Assembly: GCF_001984575.1 (NCBI RefSeq)
Contig: NZ_LZNS01000001.1
Span: 5,803,682-5,867,681 of the forward strand
Direction: 5' to 3'
From: Streptomyces sp. MP131-18
Lineage (GTDB): Bacteria > Actinomycetota > Actinomycetes > Streptomycetales > Streptomycetaceae
DNA length: 64,000 nt
A model generated the notes under the pieces. The model made no database searches, was not told the origin of the DNA, and worked only from the letters and a program-made list of their open reading frames with translations. Below are positions 2,192-25,658 of this stretch, in pieces. Both the position numbers and the translations under genes were made by a program. Every line of letters begins with the position of its first letter. Within the stretch, counting starts at the first letter, position 1.

Positions 2192-3703
2192 TCACAGTCC
2201 GCCGCCCGGGCCCGGCAGGGGCTCGTCGCCCGGGCGGGCCGGGCGGTAGACGGTCAGGCGGCCGGGGAGCTTGTCCAGCAGCACCGACTCGGGTGCGGGA
2301 CCGGCCTCGCCGTCGAGTGCGATGCCGGTGCCCTCGCCCAGCTTCGACAGGTGCAGGTACCGCAGCCGCGAAGAGGAGTACACGTGCGAACGCGGCAGCG
2401 TGCCGGTCAGTGCGGACAGCACGATGCGGGTCCGCGCCAGCCGCTTGTCGGCGGCCACCATCCGCACGTCGAGCAGCCCGTCGTCGAGGTGCGTGCGGTG
2501 CGCGGGCGTGAAGCCCTCGGGCGAATACAGCCCGTTCCCCGCGAACAGCAGCCACAGCCGGTGGGGCTGCCCGTTCAGCTCAAGCTCCACCGGGCGGCCG
2601 GTGCGCAGCACGCGGGCCAGCGACACGGCCGCCGCCGGCCACTTGCCGATGCGGTGCTCCAGCGACTCGCGGATGCGCACGAGGTCCGGGTACAGGCCGA
2701 GGCTGAAGGTGTTGAGGAAGTGGTGGTCCTGGCCCTCCGCGCCGTCCACCGGCCGGACGCGGGCCAGGTCGACGCGGATGGCGTCGCCGCCGGACACCGC
2801 GCCGCCGGTGTCCGCGAAGGTGTGTATCCCCGTGTCGAGGGCGAAGTGGTTGAGCGTGCCGCCAGGGAAGACAGCCAGCGGCAGGCCACGGGCCGCGGCC
2901 CGCGCCGCCGCCGCGTTGACGCTGCCGTCCCCGCCGCAGATCCCCAGCGCCCCGCCGAGCGCCGCGGCGCGCTCCGCCGCCTCGTCCAGCAGCTCGCCCA
3001 GGTCCGTCTCGCCGGTGCGCTGCACCAGCTCCGCCTTCGGCAGCGTCGCGCGCAGCCGGTCGGCGTCGCTGTCCGCTGCGCCGGGCCCCGCGCTCTCGTT
3101 GATGACCACGACCAGGCCCTCGCCCTCCGGCAGCGCGGGCGCCTCGGCCCTGTGGTGCACCAGCCGGCCCGGCGGCGGGCGGCGCGGCCACCAGTGAGCG
3201 GTGGCCAGCGCGGCGCTCACGCCCAGCAGGCAGCCGGCGACCACATCCGAGGGGTAGTGCACGCCGACGTAGACCCGGGAGCCGGCGACGGCCGCGGCCA
3301 CCGGCGCGACGACGGCGCCGTGGCGGCCGGACTCCAGCGCGACGCCGGTGGCGAAGGCCGCGGCGGACGCGGAGTGCCCGGAGGGGAAGGAGCTGGTCAG
3401 CGGCTGGCGGGCGAGCCTGCGGGCCAGCGGCACCGCGTCGATCAGGGGCCGCTGGCGGCGGGTGGCGTACTTGATGATCGTGTTGGTCGTGAACGAGGCG
3501 AGCGCCAGCGCCGCCACCCCGCGGAGCGCGGCGCGCCGCCCCGGCCTGCCGCCCGCCGCCGCCAGGCCCGCGGCGGCGCCGAGCCAGAGCCGCCCGTGGT
3601 CCGCCGCGTGGCTCAGCCGCGGCAGGAAGGACTGGAGAGCCGGCGGGTGGGCGGCGGCGACCCGCTCGAAGATCCGCCGGTCCAGACGGCTGAGCCGTCC
3701 CAT
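2192..3703 (-). CDS. PAP2 phosphatase - diacylglycerol kinase fusion
   Basis: 503 residues in two catalytic domains. Residues about 15-170 form a membrane PAP2 (phosphatidic acid phosphatase) domain with all three signature motifs: KYATRRQRP near 78-86, SFPSGHS near 105-111 and SRVYVGVHYPSD near 142-153, plus several hydrophobic segments. Residues about 190-500 form a DAGK/YegS-type lipid kinase with the GGDGSVN nucleotide loop near 258-264 and PGGTLNHFA after it. The enzyme probably acts on membrane or isoprenoid-type lipids, with one domain dephosphorylating and the other phosphorylating. The physiological substrate cannot be told from sequence. Such fusions recur in actinomycetes. Confidence 0.9.
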   Translation of the reverse strand: MGRLSRLDRRIFERVAAAHPPALQSFLPRLSHAADHGRLWLGAAAGLAAAGGRPGRRAALRGVAALALASFTTNTIIKYATRRQRPLIDAVPLARRLARQPLTSSFPSGHSASAAAFATGVALESGRHGAVVAPVAAAVAGSRVYVGVHYPSDVVAGCLLGVSAALATAHWWPRRPPPGRLVHHRAEAPALPEGEGLVVVINESAGPGAADSDADRLRATLPKAELVQRTGETDLGELLDEAAERAAALGGALGICGGDGSVNAAAARAAARGLPLAVFPGGTLNHFALDTGIHTFADTGGAVSGGDAIRVDLARVRPVDGAEGQDHHFLNTFSLGLYPDLVRIRESLEHRIGKWPAAAVSLARVLRTGRPVELELNGQPHRLWLLFAGNGLYSPEGFTPAHRTHLDDGLLDVRMVAADKRLARTRIVLSALTGTLPRSHVYSSSRLRYLHLSKLGEGTGIALDGEAGPAPESVLLDKLPGRLTVYRPARPGDEPLPGPGGGL

Positions 3704-21711: not shown

Positions 21712-22998
21712 ATGAACACGCGGCTGGCACGAGCACTCGGCAATCGGTTCGGTCCCGTGCGCCTCATTCCGTTGCTGATCGCAGTCGGTTACCTGCTGTT
21801 CGTTCAGCGAACGGACCCGACCACCGGTGACTGGCTGGTCACGCTGGCCGCGGGCGTGGTGTTCCTGCCGGGCGGCGTCTGGCCGCTCGCTGTCACCTGC
21901 GGCGAGGCAGCGCTCGTCGTCGCCGCCCAGCCGCTGGCCGACGCCACCCCCGTCGCCGTGAAGGTGCTCGCCAGCCTCGCCCTGCTGGAACTCGCGGTCC
22001 GCCGCCCCCTCCGCGTCGCCGCCATCGGCACCGCCGCCGTCGCCTGCGCCTACCTCGCCGTCATCGGCGAGCACGAAAAGGCCGACGGCGTCCTGGCCGT
22101 CGGCTACCGCATCGTGTGCGTCACCGCGGCCCCGGTGCTCCTGGGCGCCTATCTGCGCGCCGCCGCCCGGGCCCTGGCCCAGGCCAGGGCCCGGGCCGAG
22201 GAGGCCGAGGCGCGCCGCGCCCTGGAGGCGCGCGGCGCCCGCCTCGCCGAACGCACCGAGCTGGCCCGCGAACTGCACGACCTCGTGGCCCACCACGTCG
22301 CCTCGATCGCGTTGCGCGTCGGGGTCGCGCGCGCCGTGCTGCCCGGCCTCGACCCCAAAGTGGGCGCCGTCCTGGACGACGTGCACGCCTCCGCCGGCAC
22401 GGCCCTGACCGACCTGCGGCGCATGGTCGGCGTGCTGCGCGACCCCGCCGCGGTGCAGGACGCCCCCGGCTCGCTGCTGGCCGGGCCCGACGAACTCCCG
22501 GCCGCGGTCGCCACCGTGGTGCACCGCAGCACGCAGGCGGGCCTCGACGCGGAGTGCCACGTCGACCCGGACGTGGCGCGGCTCGACGCGGTCCGCGGGC
22601 TCGTCGTGCTGCGCGTCGTGCAGGAGGGGCTGACCAACACGGCCAAGCACGCCGGGGCGGGCGCGCGGGCGCACGTCTCGGTCTCCCTCGCGCACGGTGA
22701 GCTGGCCATCGAGGTGCGGGACGAGGGCGGCGCCCCCGCGGGGGAGGCCGCGAAGCCGGTGCCGGGGGCCGGGCCCGGCTACGGCCTGACCGGTCTGCGC
22801 GAACGCGTCGGGCTCGTGGGCGGCACCCTGACCGCGGCCCCGCACGGCCGCGGCTGGCGTCTGCGTGCCACGTTCCCCGCGGGGCTCGCCGAGCGGGAGC
22901 CGTGTCCCGTGCCGCCGGGGGAGCGCGGCGCCGCGGCGGTCACCGCGGGCGGGACGGCGGGCGGGACGGCGGGCGGGACGGTGGAGGGGACGCCGTGA
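21712..22998 (+). CDS. two-component sensor histidine kinase (NarL/DesK type)
   Basis: 428 residues from ATG 21712 with GGGGAGGA upstream. The first about 150 residues hold several hydrophobic segments (RLIPLLIAVGYLLFV, WPLAVTCGEAALVV). A short coiled-coil linker follows, then HisKA_3 with the phospho-acceptor His in ELARELHDLVAHHVASIALR and a HATPase_c domain (VLRVVQEGLTNTAKHA, PGYGLTGLRERV). The C-terminal tail is a 12-bp-repeat-derived Gly-Thr sequence (TAGGTAGGTAGGT). It is coupled to its response regulator through a GTGA overlap. Confidence 0.92.
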   Translation: MNTRLARALGNRFGPVRLIPLLIAVGYLLFVQRTDPTTGDWLVTLAAGVVFLPGGVWPLAVTCGEAALVVAAQPLADATPVAVKVLASLALLELAVRRPLRVAAIGTAAVACAYLAVIGEHEKADGVLAVGYRIVCVTAAPVLLGAYLRAAARALAQARARAEEAEARRALEARGARLAERTELARELHDLVAHHVASIALRVGVARAVLPGLDPKVGAVLDDVHASAGTALTDLRRMVGVLRDPAAVQDAPGSLLAGPDELPAAVATVVHRSTQAGLDAECHVDPDVARLDAVRGLVVLRVVQEGLTNTAKHAGAGARAHVSVSLAHGELAIEVRDEGGAPAGEAAKPVPGAGPGYGLTGLRERVGLVGGTLTAAPHGRGWRLRATFPAGLAEREPCPVPPGERGAAAVTAGGTAGGTAGGTVEGTP

Positions 22999-23657
22999 TC
23001 GCGACCCTGCTCGTCGACGACCAGCGGCTGGTCCGGGCGGGGTTGCGGATGCTCTGCGAATCCACCACGGACATCCGTATCGTCGGCGAGGCCGCCACCG
23101 GCGCCGAGGCCGTGCGGCGATGCGATGCGGTGCGGCCGGACGTGGTGCTCATGGACCTGCGCATGCCGGGCATGGACGGAACGACGGCGACCCGCCGCAT
23201 CCTCCAGGCCCGGCCGGCGACCCGGATCGTCGTGCTGACGACGTTCGACGACGACGACCACCTGTACCCGGCGCTGGCCGCGGGCGCCTGCGGCTTCCTC
23301 GCCAAGGACGCGGCCCCCGACGAACTGCTCGACGCCGTGCGGCAGGCCGCGGGCGGCGGCAGCCCGTTCAGCAATGCCGTGCTCCAGCGGCTGGTCACGC
23401 GGGCCACCGGCTCGTGGACGCCCCGGCCCGCCGCGGCACCGGCGGGCGAGGACCTGACCGCCCGGGAGCGCGAGGTGCTGGCCCACGTGGGCGACGGGCT
23501 GTCCAACGCCGAGATCGCCGCGCGTATCCATGTCGGCCTCACCACCGTGAAGACCCACATCGCCAGCCTGATGCGGAAGACGGGCAGCGCGACCCGGGTC
23601 CACCTCGCCGTCTTCGCGGTGCGCAACGGCTTCGCGCCGCCCGGCCCCTGCGCCTGA
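22995..23657 (+). CDS. LuxR/NarL-family response regulator
   Basis: 220 residues. GTG 22995 overlaps the kinase stop by 4 bp. The receiver domain has VVLMDLRMPGMDG with the phosphorylatable D54 and VLTTFDDDDHLYPAL. The HTH_LuxR domain is near residues 150-210 (LTAREREVLAHVGDGLSNAE, then HVGLTTVKTHIASLMRKTG). It forms a two-component system with the kinase upstream. Target genes are unknown; the DUF4360 genes downstream are separated by 0.5 kb and a CebR-like box. Confidence 0.93.
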   Translation: MIATLLVDDQRLVRAGLRMLCESTTDIRIVGEAATGAEAVRRCDAVRPDVVLMDLRMPGMDGTTATRRILQARPATRIVVLTTFDDDDHLYPALAAGACGFLAKDAAPDELLDAVRQAAGGGSPFSNAVLQRLVTRATGSWTPRPAAAPAGEDLTAREREVLAHVGDGLSNAEIAARIHVGLTTVKTHIASLMRKTGSATRVHLAVFAVRNGFAPPGPCA

Positions 23658-24169
23658 CCGCGGCGGTCCGGAGGAGGGCGCCCGTGTCGACGTGAAGTAC
23701 CCCTTGCCGTCGCAGTCCCCGGGCGCGCGCCGCGGGGTGCGAACGGCCCGCACGTGCCCGTTCCGGCGTGCCGCCGATCCGTTCCTCTACATTTCCACCC
23801 GGAATGCCACCTGCCCGTGGGCGAGTATCGGCCTGGCTTGTTGAATGCGGTCCCGCATCTACCGCGACCGGAAAGGAAGCCCTACGCTGGGAGCGCTCCC
23901 ACTCGTGGGGGCGCGGGACCCCGAGGGACAGTCTGCGCGGGACAGCGCGGTCGCCTTTCGTTCCCGGCAGGAAAGAGCCGAATTCCCCCGGTTGCTCCCC
24001 CTGCGGTCGGCTGTTCAACGACCGTGATCCCTTGTCGAGCGACCTCGCGCCGCCCTGCCCCACAAAGAGCCAGGGTGCCCCAGGGGGCGTTTCGTCTCCC
24101 GCTTTCCCTCAGTCGTGTGCGGTGCAGGAGTGTGTCCCGTGCCGCCCTTGAATGACCGATTGGAGAACC
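23658..24169. other. intergenic region with no supported gene
   Basis: 512 bp between the response regulator and the first DUF4360 gene. Reading frames cover parts of it but none shows family motifs or sensible codon use. The main feature is the palindrome at 23888-23901. If transcription begins near it, the first DUF4360 mRNA has a leader of about 270 nt. Confidence 0.6.
23888..23901. promoter_or_regulatory. perfect CebR-box palindrome
   Basis: TGGGAGCGCTCCCA matches the 14-bp consensus reported for the Streptomyces cello-oligosaccharide repressor CebR. It overlaps a possible -10 (TACGCT, 23883-23888). It lies about 270 bp upstream of the DUF4360 pair. Confidence 0.65.
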
Positions 24170-24820
24170 ATGTCTGGTGTTCTCGCCGCCGGCGGGGCCG
24201 CCGTGGCGTTATTCGCCTCGACGCTTTCCGCCCAGGGTGCGCCGGCGGTTTCCGACGCGCCGCAGGAAAGAATCGAAATCAGCATCCAGACCATCAACGG
24301 GTCCGGCTGCCCGGCCGGTTCCGCCGCGGTCGCCGCTTCCGCGGACAACACCGCGTTCACCGTGACCTACAGCGACTACATCGCGCAGGTCGGGGCCGGG
24401 GCGCAGCCGACCGACTTCAGGAAGAACTGCCAGCTCAACCTCAACGTGCAGATCCCGCAGGGCTTCACCTATGCCGTCGCGGGCGTGGACTACCGCGGGT
24501 ACGCGTATCTGTCCGACGGGGCCTCCGCGCTCCAGAAGGCGCAGTACTACTTCCAGGGCTCGTCCGAAACGGCCTCGCAGAGCACCGGATTCAGCGGCCC
24601 CTACGACGACAACTGGCAGACCTCGGACAGGACCGAAGTCGCCGAGCTCATCTATGCGCCCTGCGGCGAACAGCGGAACTTCAACATCAATACGGAACTG
24701 CGCGTCAGCGCCGGCAACTCCGATCCGCGGCAGAGCACGAGCTTCATCGCCATGGACTCGACGGACGGCGCGGTGAGCACGACGTATCACCTCAGATGGA
24801 AGGAATGCCCGAGCAGCTGA
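24170..24820 (+). CDS. secreted DUF4360-family protein, copy 1
   Basis: 216 residues from ATG 24170 with TTGGAG upstream. The N-terminus (VLAAGGAAVALFASTLSAQGAPA) is a signal peptide. The mature part has the DUF4360 pattern: INGSGCPAGSAAV, FTVTYSDYIAQVG, TDFRKNCQLNLNVQIPQGF, VDYRGYAYLSDGA and a C-terminal YHLRWKEC. Conserved Cys residues suggest extracytoplasmic disulfides. Function is unknown for the family; many members are exported by actinomycetes and fungi. A near-identical downstream paralogue and identical ribosome-binding sequence show recent duplication. Confidence 0.85.
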   Translation: MSGVLAAGGAAVALFASTLSAQGAPAVSDAPQERIEISIQTINGSGCPAGSAAVAASADNTAFTVTYSDYIAQVGAGAQPTDFRKNCQLNLNVQIPQGFTYAVAGVDYRGYAYLSDGASALQKAQYYFQGSSETASQSTGFSGPYDDNWQTSDRTEVAELIYAPCGEQRNFNINTELRVSAGNSDPRQSTSFIAMDSTDGAVSTTYHLRWKECPSS

Positions 24821-24871
24821 TCCGGGCCGTCCACCGCGAACGGGCCGCGCGTCACGGGCCCGGGAAACCGG

Positions 24872-24914
24872 TGCTCCCGCGTCTCGGCCGCCGAGCTGCC
24901 GGGGCGCGGGAGCA
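24872..24914 (+). terminator. nested hairpin between the two DUF4360 genes
   Basis: TGCTCCCGCG (24872-24881) pairs perfectly with 24905-24914, and within the loop CTCGG (24883-24887) pairs with CCGAG (24891-24895). It may terminate or attenuate transcription from copy 1 or process the bicistronic mRNA. Confidence 0.45.
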
Positions 24915-24992
24915 TCAGCTCAATTCAGCACGGACCGCGCGGGGACATTGCCGTGCCCTCGCGAGAGTCCGCAGACGATCGATTGGAGAACC

Positions 24993-25658
24993 ATGCCCGG
25001 TGCACTGGTCATTGGCAGCGCCGTCGTGGCATTACTGACCACGACGCCCTCCTCTCACATCGCGACCCCACCCTACTTCCTCGACGCGCCGACCGACAGA
25101 ATGGTCATCGAGGTCGTCACGGTCAACGGGTCCGGCTGCCCGGCGGGAACGGCCGCGGTGGCCGTCTCGGAGGACAACACGGCGTTCACGGTGACCTACA
25201 GCGAATACCTGGCCCAGGTGGGTATCGGTGCCGGTCCGACCGACTTCAGGAAGAACTGCCAGCTCAACCTGGCCATCCGGGTGCCGCAGGGCTTCACGTA
25301 CGCCGTCGCCAGCGTCGACTACCGCGGGTACGCCTATCTGGCAGAGGGCGCCTCGGCCACGCAGAGGGCGCAGTACTACTTCCAGGGCTCACCGGAGACG
25401 GACCAGTTCACGCACACCTTCGCCGGCGCCTACGACGACAACTGGGCGGCGAACGACGTGACCGACATCGAGGCGCTCGTCTGGGCGCCCTGCGGCGAGC
25501 TGCGGAACTTCAACGTCAACACCGAACTGCGCGTCGGCGCGGGGACGTCGAACCCGCAGGAGACCACCAGCTTCATCGCCATGGATTCCACGGACGGTGA
25601 CGTCAACACCACCTATCAACTCGCCTGGAAGGAGTGCCCGGAAGTCCCCGAGGACTAG
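24993..25658 (+). CDS. secreted DUF4360-family protein, copy 2
   Basis: 221 residues from ATG 24993. It aligns along its whole length with copy 1 (NGSGCPAGTAAVAVSEDNTA, TDFRKNCQLNLAIRVPQGF, YAPC replaced by WAPC, terminal WKECPEV). The N-terminus (VIGSAVVALLTTTPSSHIA) is a signal-like hydrophobic segment. The leader before the start (GATCGATTGGAGAACC) is duplicated from copy 1 (GACCGATTGGAGAACC). A very long hairpin follows the stop. The two proteins probably have related extracellular roles. Confidence 0.85.
   Translation: MPGALVIGSAVVALLTTTPSSHIATPPYFLDAPTDRMVIEVVTVNGSGCPAGTAAVAVSEDNTAFTVTYSEYLAQVGIGAGPTDFRKNCQLNLAIRVPQGFTYAVASVDYRGYAYLAEGASATQRAQYYFQGSPETDQFTHTFAGAYDDNWAANDVTDIEALVWAPCGELRNFNVNTELRVGAGTSNPQETTSFIAMDSTDGDVNTTYQLAWKECPEVPED

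Follow-up and report, generated by a model that had tools for sequence, protein, structure and literature searches.

A 14-bp palindrome on the predicted promoter of a tandem pair of DUF4360 genes in Streptomyces sp. MP131-18 is, judged by sequence comparison, highly likely to be a real, working operator of CebR for the first gene of the pair, and this gene is very probably a CebR target that adds to the known regulon. CebR (named CelR in other actinobacteria) is the cellobiose/cello-oligosaccharide repressor of the LacI family. The features of the window, as we call the whole 64-kb stretch of DNA that was analysed, are as follows.

22995..23657, + strand: response-regulator gene (Response_reg and GerE domains), given as context.
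23883..23888, + strand: putative -10 TACGCT, whose last T (T23888) is the first base of the box.
23888..23901, no strand assigned: exact CebR box TGGGAGCGCTCCCA, predicted CebR operator by sequence match, kept in a 10-species clade.
23895..24169, + strand: inferred 5' untranslated leader of ~275 nt, placed from the -10 with the start assumed 6-8 nt after it.
24170..24820, + strand: first DUF4360 gene, 216 aa (PF14273, E 4.4e-69), first of the tandem pair in the tree.
24870..24916, + strand: strong hairpin with no T run after it, from the RNA fold of 24818-24992.
24993..25658, + strand: second DUF4360 gene, 221 aa (PF14273, E 1.4e-70).

The box is intergenic, begins 282 nt upstream of the first DUF4360 start codon and is the sole exact copy of TGGGAGCGCTCCCA in the window. 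The initial annotation had described a perfect box at 23888-23901 that overlaps a possible -10 and represents the CebR consensus, and it was right on each count: the match is exact, TACGCT shares one base with it in a TAnnnT register that recurs in 10/10 members of the clade, and the 14-mer is the CebR site given in two publications (PMC4898821, PMC5332605). A first-order Markov model of the window predicts 0.0007 exact copies per 64 kb and 0.09 per genome, and a chance origin was rejected on the copy counts against this expectation. Matches with up to three mismatches number 7 in the window compared with a mean of 7.9 in shuffled sequences, which is chance level, so only the exactness of TGGGAGCGCTCCCA carries weight.

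The core promoter is less distinct than the box. A consensus scan of 23600-25000 returned no sigma-70-type promoter, and by eye the -35 is poor in the window species, with no clear hexamer, whereas in most clade relatives a plausible -35 hexamer can be read 17-18 nt upstream of this -10. This weak -35 would suit a palindrome that is not regulatory at all, present by chance or as a feature of the transcript, a reading that we regard as extremely improbable given the low chance expectation, the conservation of the box amid divergent flanks and the poor hairpin that a perfect 14-mer without a loop would make. A role as hairpin or terminator was rejected on this last ground and because the terminator scan found only two minus-strand sites, both elsewhere. 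Service to another gene was likewise rejected, as the upstream gene, itself on the + strand, stops at 23657 and no divergent gene starts there, and so was an RNA element in the leader, 23650-25000 having no Rfam match.

Secondly, the box belongs to a large set of identical and near-identical sites. The genome (7.96 Mb) contains 29 exact and 10 one-mismatch copies of TGGGAGCGCTCCCA, and 32 of the 38 other sites, exact or one-mismatch, lie next to a cebR/cebE-type pair or to genes whose domains degrade plant polysaccharides or bind sugars (genes from our own rough gene caller rather than the annotation, domains by Pfam; the assessment of the 38 sites leaves out 64222, 1540747, 1541653 and 4433926). 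The glycosidase genes at boxes encode GH9 (2), GH5 (2), GH6 (4), GH48 (2), GH10, GH12, GH26, GH43, GH30C and GH1 enzymes, and the remaining neighbours include six LPMO_10 genes and genes for a Cip1-like protein, a pectate lyase, two rhamnogalacturonan lyases, a glucuronoyl esterase, a BNR/CBM2 protein, a CBM4_9 protein and a ricin-lectin protein. Two of the 38 sites have unrelated neighbours, L023 (arylamine N-acetyltransferase, NACHT) and L025 (NlpC/P60, sigma factor). Both of these boxes are exact (L023:3005 and L025:3004). Three further exact boxes, L007:3623, L013:2998 and L013:3904, have no confident gene nearby, although L013 may hold a broken CBM2-type gene. At L020 a perfect 46-bp palindrome (2989-3034), centred on an exact box, lies between the pectate lyase gene and another LacI gene.

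This set resembles the CebR regulons of S. scabies and of SirexAA-E, as described in the two publications, in the 14-mer, the kinds of target gene, the layout of the LacI and solute-binding genes and a bglC box at -13. The same 14-mer lies at cellulose-induced genes in SirexAA-E, where it was tested with a cebR deletion (PMC4898821), and the one-mismatch box 13 nt upstream of the GH1 gene here equals the S. scabies bglC box in both sequence and distance (PMC5332605). The NCBIfam models give no matching equivalog above cut-off for the CebR-type LacI protein, and the CebR name is therefore taken from context and from the published consensus; by every feature tested, the regulon in this genome is the CebR regulon. 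A LacI paralogue with CebR-like specificity could in principle bind the box instead, in which case the inducer may be another plant sugar, derived from pectin or xylan. Eight LacI-type matches in the genome pass E 1e-60, LacI genes lie beside boxes at L020 (with the pectate lyase) and L030 (with a GH6 gene), and boxes also precede pectin and xylan genes, but an exact box lies between a LacI gene and a divergent solute-binding protein gene (site L018, with the LacI gene at 1857-2894 on its minus strand), the classic place of cebR, and the consensus is the published CebR one (PMC4898821, PMC5332605), so that we hold the paralogue to be improbable.

Thirdly, the box is retained in a single clade of DUF4360 loci. 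The family is present in 128 of 199 Streptomyces genomes, and the comparison set consisted of 185 distinct DUF4360 proteins with upstream DNA, near-identical proteins having been dropped before counting. An exact box occurs within 560 nt upstream in 7/185 regions, in every case before the first gene of a tandem pair (the window, Streptomyces sp. SBT349, Streptomyces sp. ACA25, S. radiopugnans, S. carminius, the MAG UBA8490 and G288). In the FastTree phylogeny, whose inner branches are weak, these belong to a group of ten rows, and there the box is exact in seven rows, has one mismatch in one and two mismatches in two, so that all ten species carry it within 2 mismatches upstream of the first gene. 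Mean pairwise identity in the clade is 93% across the box and 35% across the flanks, while the box lies anywhere from 282 to 480 nt ahead of the start codon. The TA at -5/-4 and the T at box position +1 are invariant (10/10) and form a TAnnnT that overlaps the box by one base. Retention of the box on the promoter amid diverged surroundings is the strongest evidence for its function.

Beyond this clade none of the 185 regions has an exact box. No copy within 1 mismatch occurs at the 30 top-scoring DUF4360 loci from other genomes, and in the sister group, which comprises 21 rows of tandem pairs (S. violaceusniger and relatives among them), the same place has degraded forms, for example TAGGAGCGCTCGCG. 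A CebR relative with 74-76% identity is encoded in eight genomes of this sister group, each of which has 6-13 boxes elsewhere. A search for the same box before DUF4360 genes of other species, which the initial annotation had proposed as a check, finds it exact in one clade (7/185 regions).

The clade that carries the box is also rich in boxes overall. Exact copies per genome range from 0 (48 genomes) to 29 across 392 Streptomyces genomes, the maximum being this genome (G000), which in this respect differs from the published regulons; the next counts are 26 (G356), 25 (G183) and 19 (G214), and the top four all belong to the clade. Sixteen genomes have at least 15 boxes, and they include seven of the eight sampled clade members, the eighth (G202, 81% complete) having 9. 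The hypergeometric probability of this overlap is 3e-10, a statistic that ignores kinship, and shared ancestry may be the cause of the association. LacI relatives at 70-83% identity were found in 7/7 of the other clade genomes tested. The 29 boxes suggest that the strain is strongly cellulolytic.

A different element occupies the same promoter position in a second clade. In 28/185 upstream regions, those of a group of singleton DUF4360 genes, TAYSMT precedes KCGANCGCTCCC, which is placed relative to the -10 just as the CebR box is, and the element, also written as TKCGANCGCTCCC or TACGATGCGAACGCTCCCA, takes the place of the CebR box. Its right half, CGCTCCC, is half a CebR box, while its left half differs in all 28. 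Searched together with the -10 as TANNATKCGANCGCTCCC, the element occurs once per genome in 8/12 genomes, each time beside DUF4360; the form TAYSMTKCGANCGCTCCC, in register with the -10, is DUF4360-specific where searched (for example L042 and the L106-type genomes G034, G058, G103 and G106). Without the -10, TKCGANCGCTCCC gives counts near those of the reversed control in most of 7 genomes, with 11 against 1 in G103. We take the core GANCGNTC and its central CG to resemble LacI-family operators. Four carriers of the element (G034, G058, G374 and G258) have neither an exact CebR box nor a CebR relative at E 1e-60. Since the element is present in genomes without a strong CebR relative, CebR does not govern DUF4360 genes in general; their usual promoter element appears to be read by something other than CebR or to reflect a core-promoter constraint.

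The same observations allow a reading in which the box itself is a DUF4360-specific element that does not depend on CebR, recognized by another LacI/GalR protein or held by a constraint on the core promoter or start, with the exact CebR match as a by-product. The shared -10 register, the shared right half, the restriction of TANNATKCGANCGCTCCC to DUF4360 loci in the genomes searched and the four carriers without a strong CebR relative all agree with it. However, an unrelated asymmetric element gives no reason for clade boxes that are fully symmetric and, in 7/10, exact. The exact form is found in the genomes richest in boxes, and the left half of the other element differs throughout. On this balance we think such an element unlikely, and CebR binding at the box remains the preferred reading.

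The two elements may be related by descent. A regulatory capture, in which an old non-CebR operator-like element became a perfect CebR box in one strongly cellulolytic clade, is a tentative proposal, and just as tentatively a stand-alone CBM-like beta-sandwich protein would thereby have joined the cellulose-degrading set. Gain and loss look alike on the tree, so the other element may instead have arisen by decay of a CebR box. A second palindromic element, TTGNCATGNGCATGAC, lies 42-119 nt after the -10 in many singleton leaders (for example L159, L133 and L148) and is absent from the window's own leader. A loose pattern, CATGNGCATG or GATGNGCATG, matches 51/185 regions, 6 of the matches being coding, and none after one mononucleotide shuffle.

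The second gene of the pair stands further from the box. RNA folding of 24818-24992 gives -93.6 kcal/mol (z -2.86 against shuffles), and at the eight other clade loci folded (without shuffles) a similar long hairpin lies between the two genes. The arms of the hairpin at 24870-24916 carry GCTCCC and GGGAGC, which correspond to the two CebR half-boxes with their order swapped, probably by coincidence. The 450 nt upstream of the second gene contain no CebR-like box within 4 mismatches. Its co-expression by read-through past the hairpin is likely.

Both proteins are clear family members, scoring 232 and 237 bits against a PF14273 cut-off of 27, and they are the only two PF14273 matches in the genome. 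The hydrophobic N-terminus of the first reads as a signal peptide, and both proteins are probably secreted. The predicted structure of the first (88 sequences, pLDDT 85.9, pTM 0.78) is a beta-sandwich that follows a disordered or signal segment. Only Bdellovibrio Bd1399 resembles it strongly in structure (8okh; Z 13.5, rmsd of 3.3 over 161 residues), at just 11% sequence identity. Weaker matches at Z ~8 or less, a range common for beta-sandwiches, include viral jelly rolls, TNF-like ligands and carbohydrate-binding modules, with CBM27, CBM61, CBM4 and CBM11 among many low-score hits. A single-sequence search of the PDB had no match at E 1, and a profile match to 3by5 (E 0.22) was taken as chance. 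There are no phage relatives at E 1e-5, and NCBIfam has no name for DUF4360 proteins.

Bd1399 is described in PMC10792529 as a DUF4360 relative with two disulfides, to which the PF14273 assignment, the Bd1399-like fold and the four cysteines invariant in DUF4360 proteins correspond here. Fungal members are described in PMC10949477 as secreted and as putative effectors, so DUF4360 may have other roles. Unlike Bd1399 and the fungal members, the tandem pair with a CebR box is a feature of the Streptomyces clade. Cip1-like and CBM-type helpers of cellulose degradation offer a further comparison, being likewise secreted, non-catalytic-looking or unclassified and co-regulated with cellulases, and the modelled beta-sandwich also resembles CBM27 and CBM61 among many others, the CBM matches having Z ~7. 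A role as a stand-alone sugar-binding helper is plausible for a secreted protein induced on cellulose. The passages of PMC4898821 and PMC5332605 covered here, supplements aside, do not mention DUF4360, and open-access literature searches for DUF4360 and PF14273 yielded no Streptomyces or cellulose paper.

In the mechanism that we propose, CebR sitting on the box would block the DUF4360 promoter by covering both its -10 and its start point. Once cello-oligosaccharides had released CebR, the cell would produce and secrete the first DUF4360 protein alongside cellulases and LPMOs, and the second gene would probably follow by read-through past the hairpin. Some observations speak against CebR control: the weak -35 in the window species; the length of the leader, though published boxes are located as far as -311 and beyond (PMC5332605); and the sister clade, in which CebR relatives and boxes elsewhere coexist with DUF4360 promoters that have no intact box. 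The initial annotation had suggested that both genes may be induced during cellulose use. For the first gene, regulon context, conservation, promoter position and the presence of a CebR-like protein in the genomes tested all favour control by CebR; for the second, beyond a strong hairpin and with no box of its own, it is only inferred.

The box had also been put forward as a clue to the uncharacterised family, and this applies to one clade of tandem pairs, the exact box being found in 7/185 regions and a different element in 28 others. Extension of CebR control to the whole DUF4360 family is not supported, and the CebR clue should not be carried over to it. Within one branch of Streptomyces the first DUF4360 protein is probably part of the plant-biomass toolkit. 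A widespread secreted family thereby gains partners (cellulases, LPMOs and a Cip1-like protein) and a condition under which it can be tested (cello-oligosaccharides).
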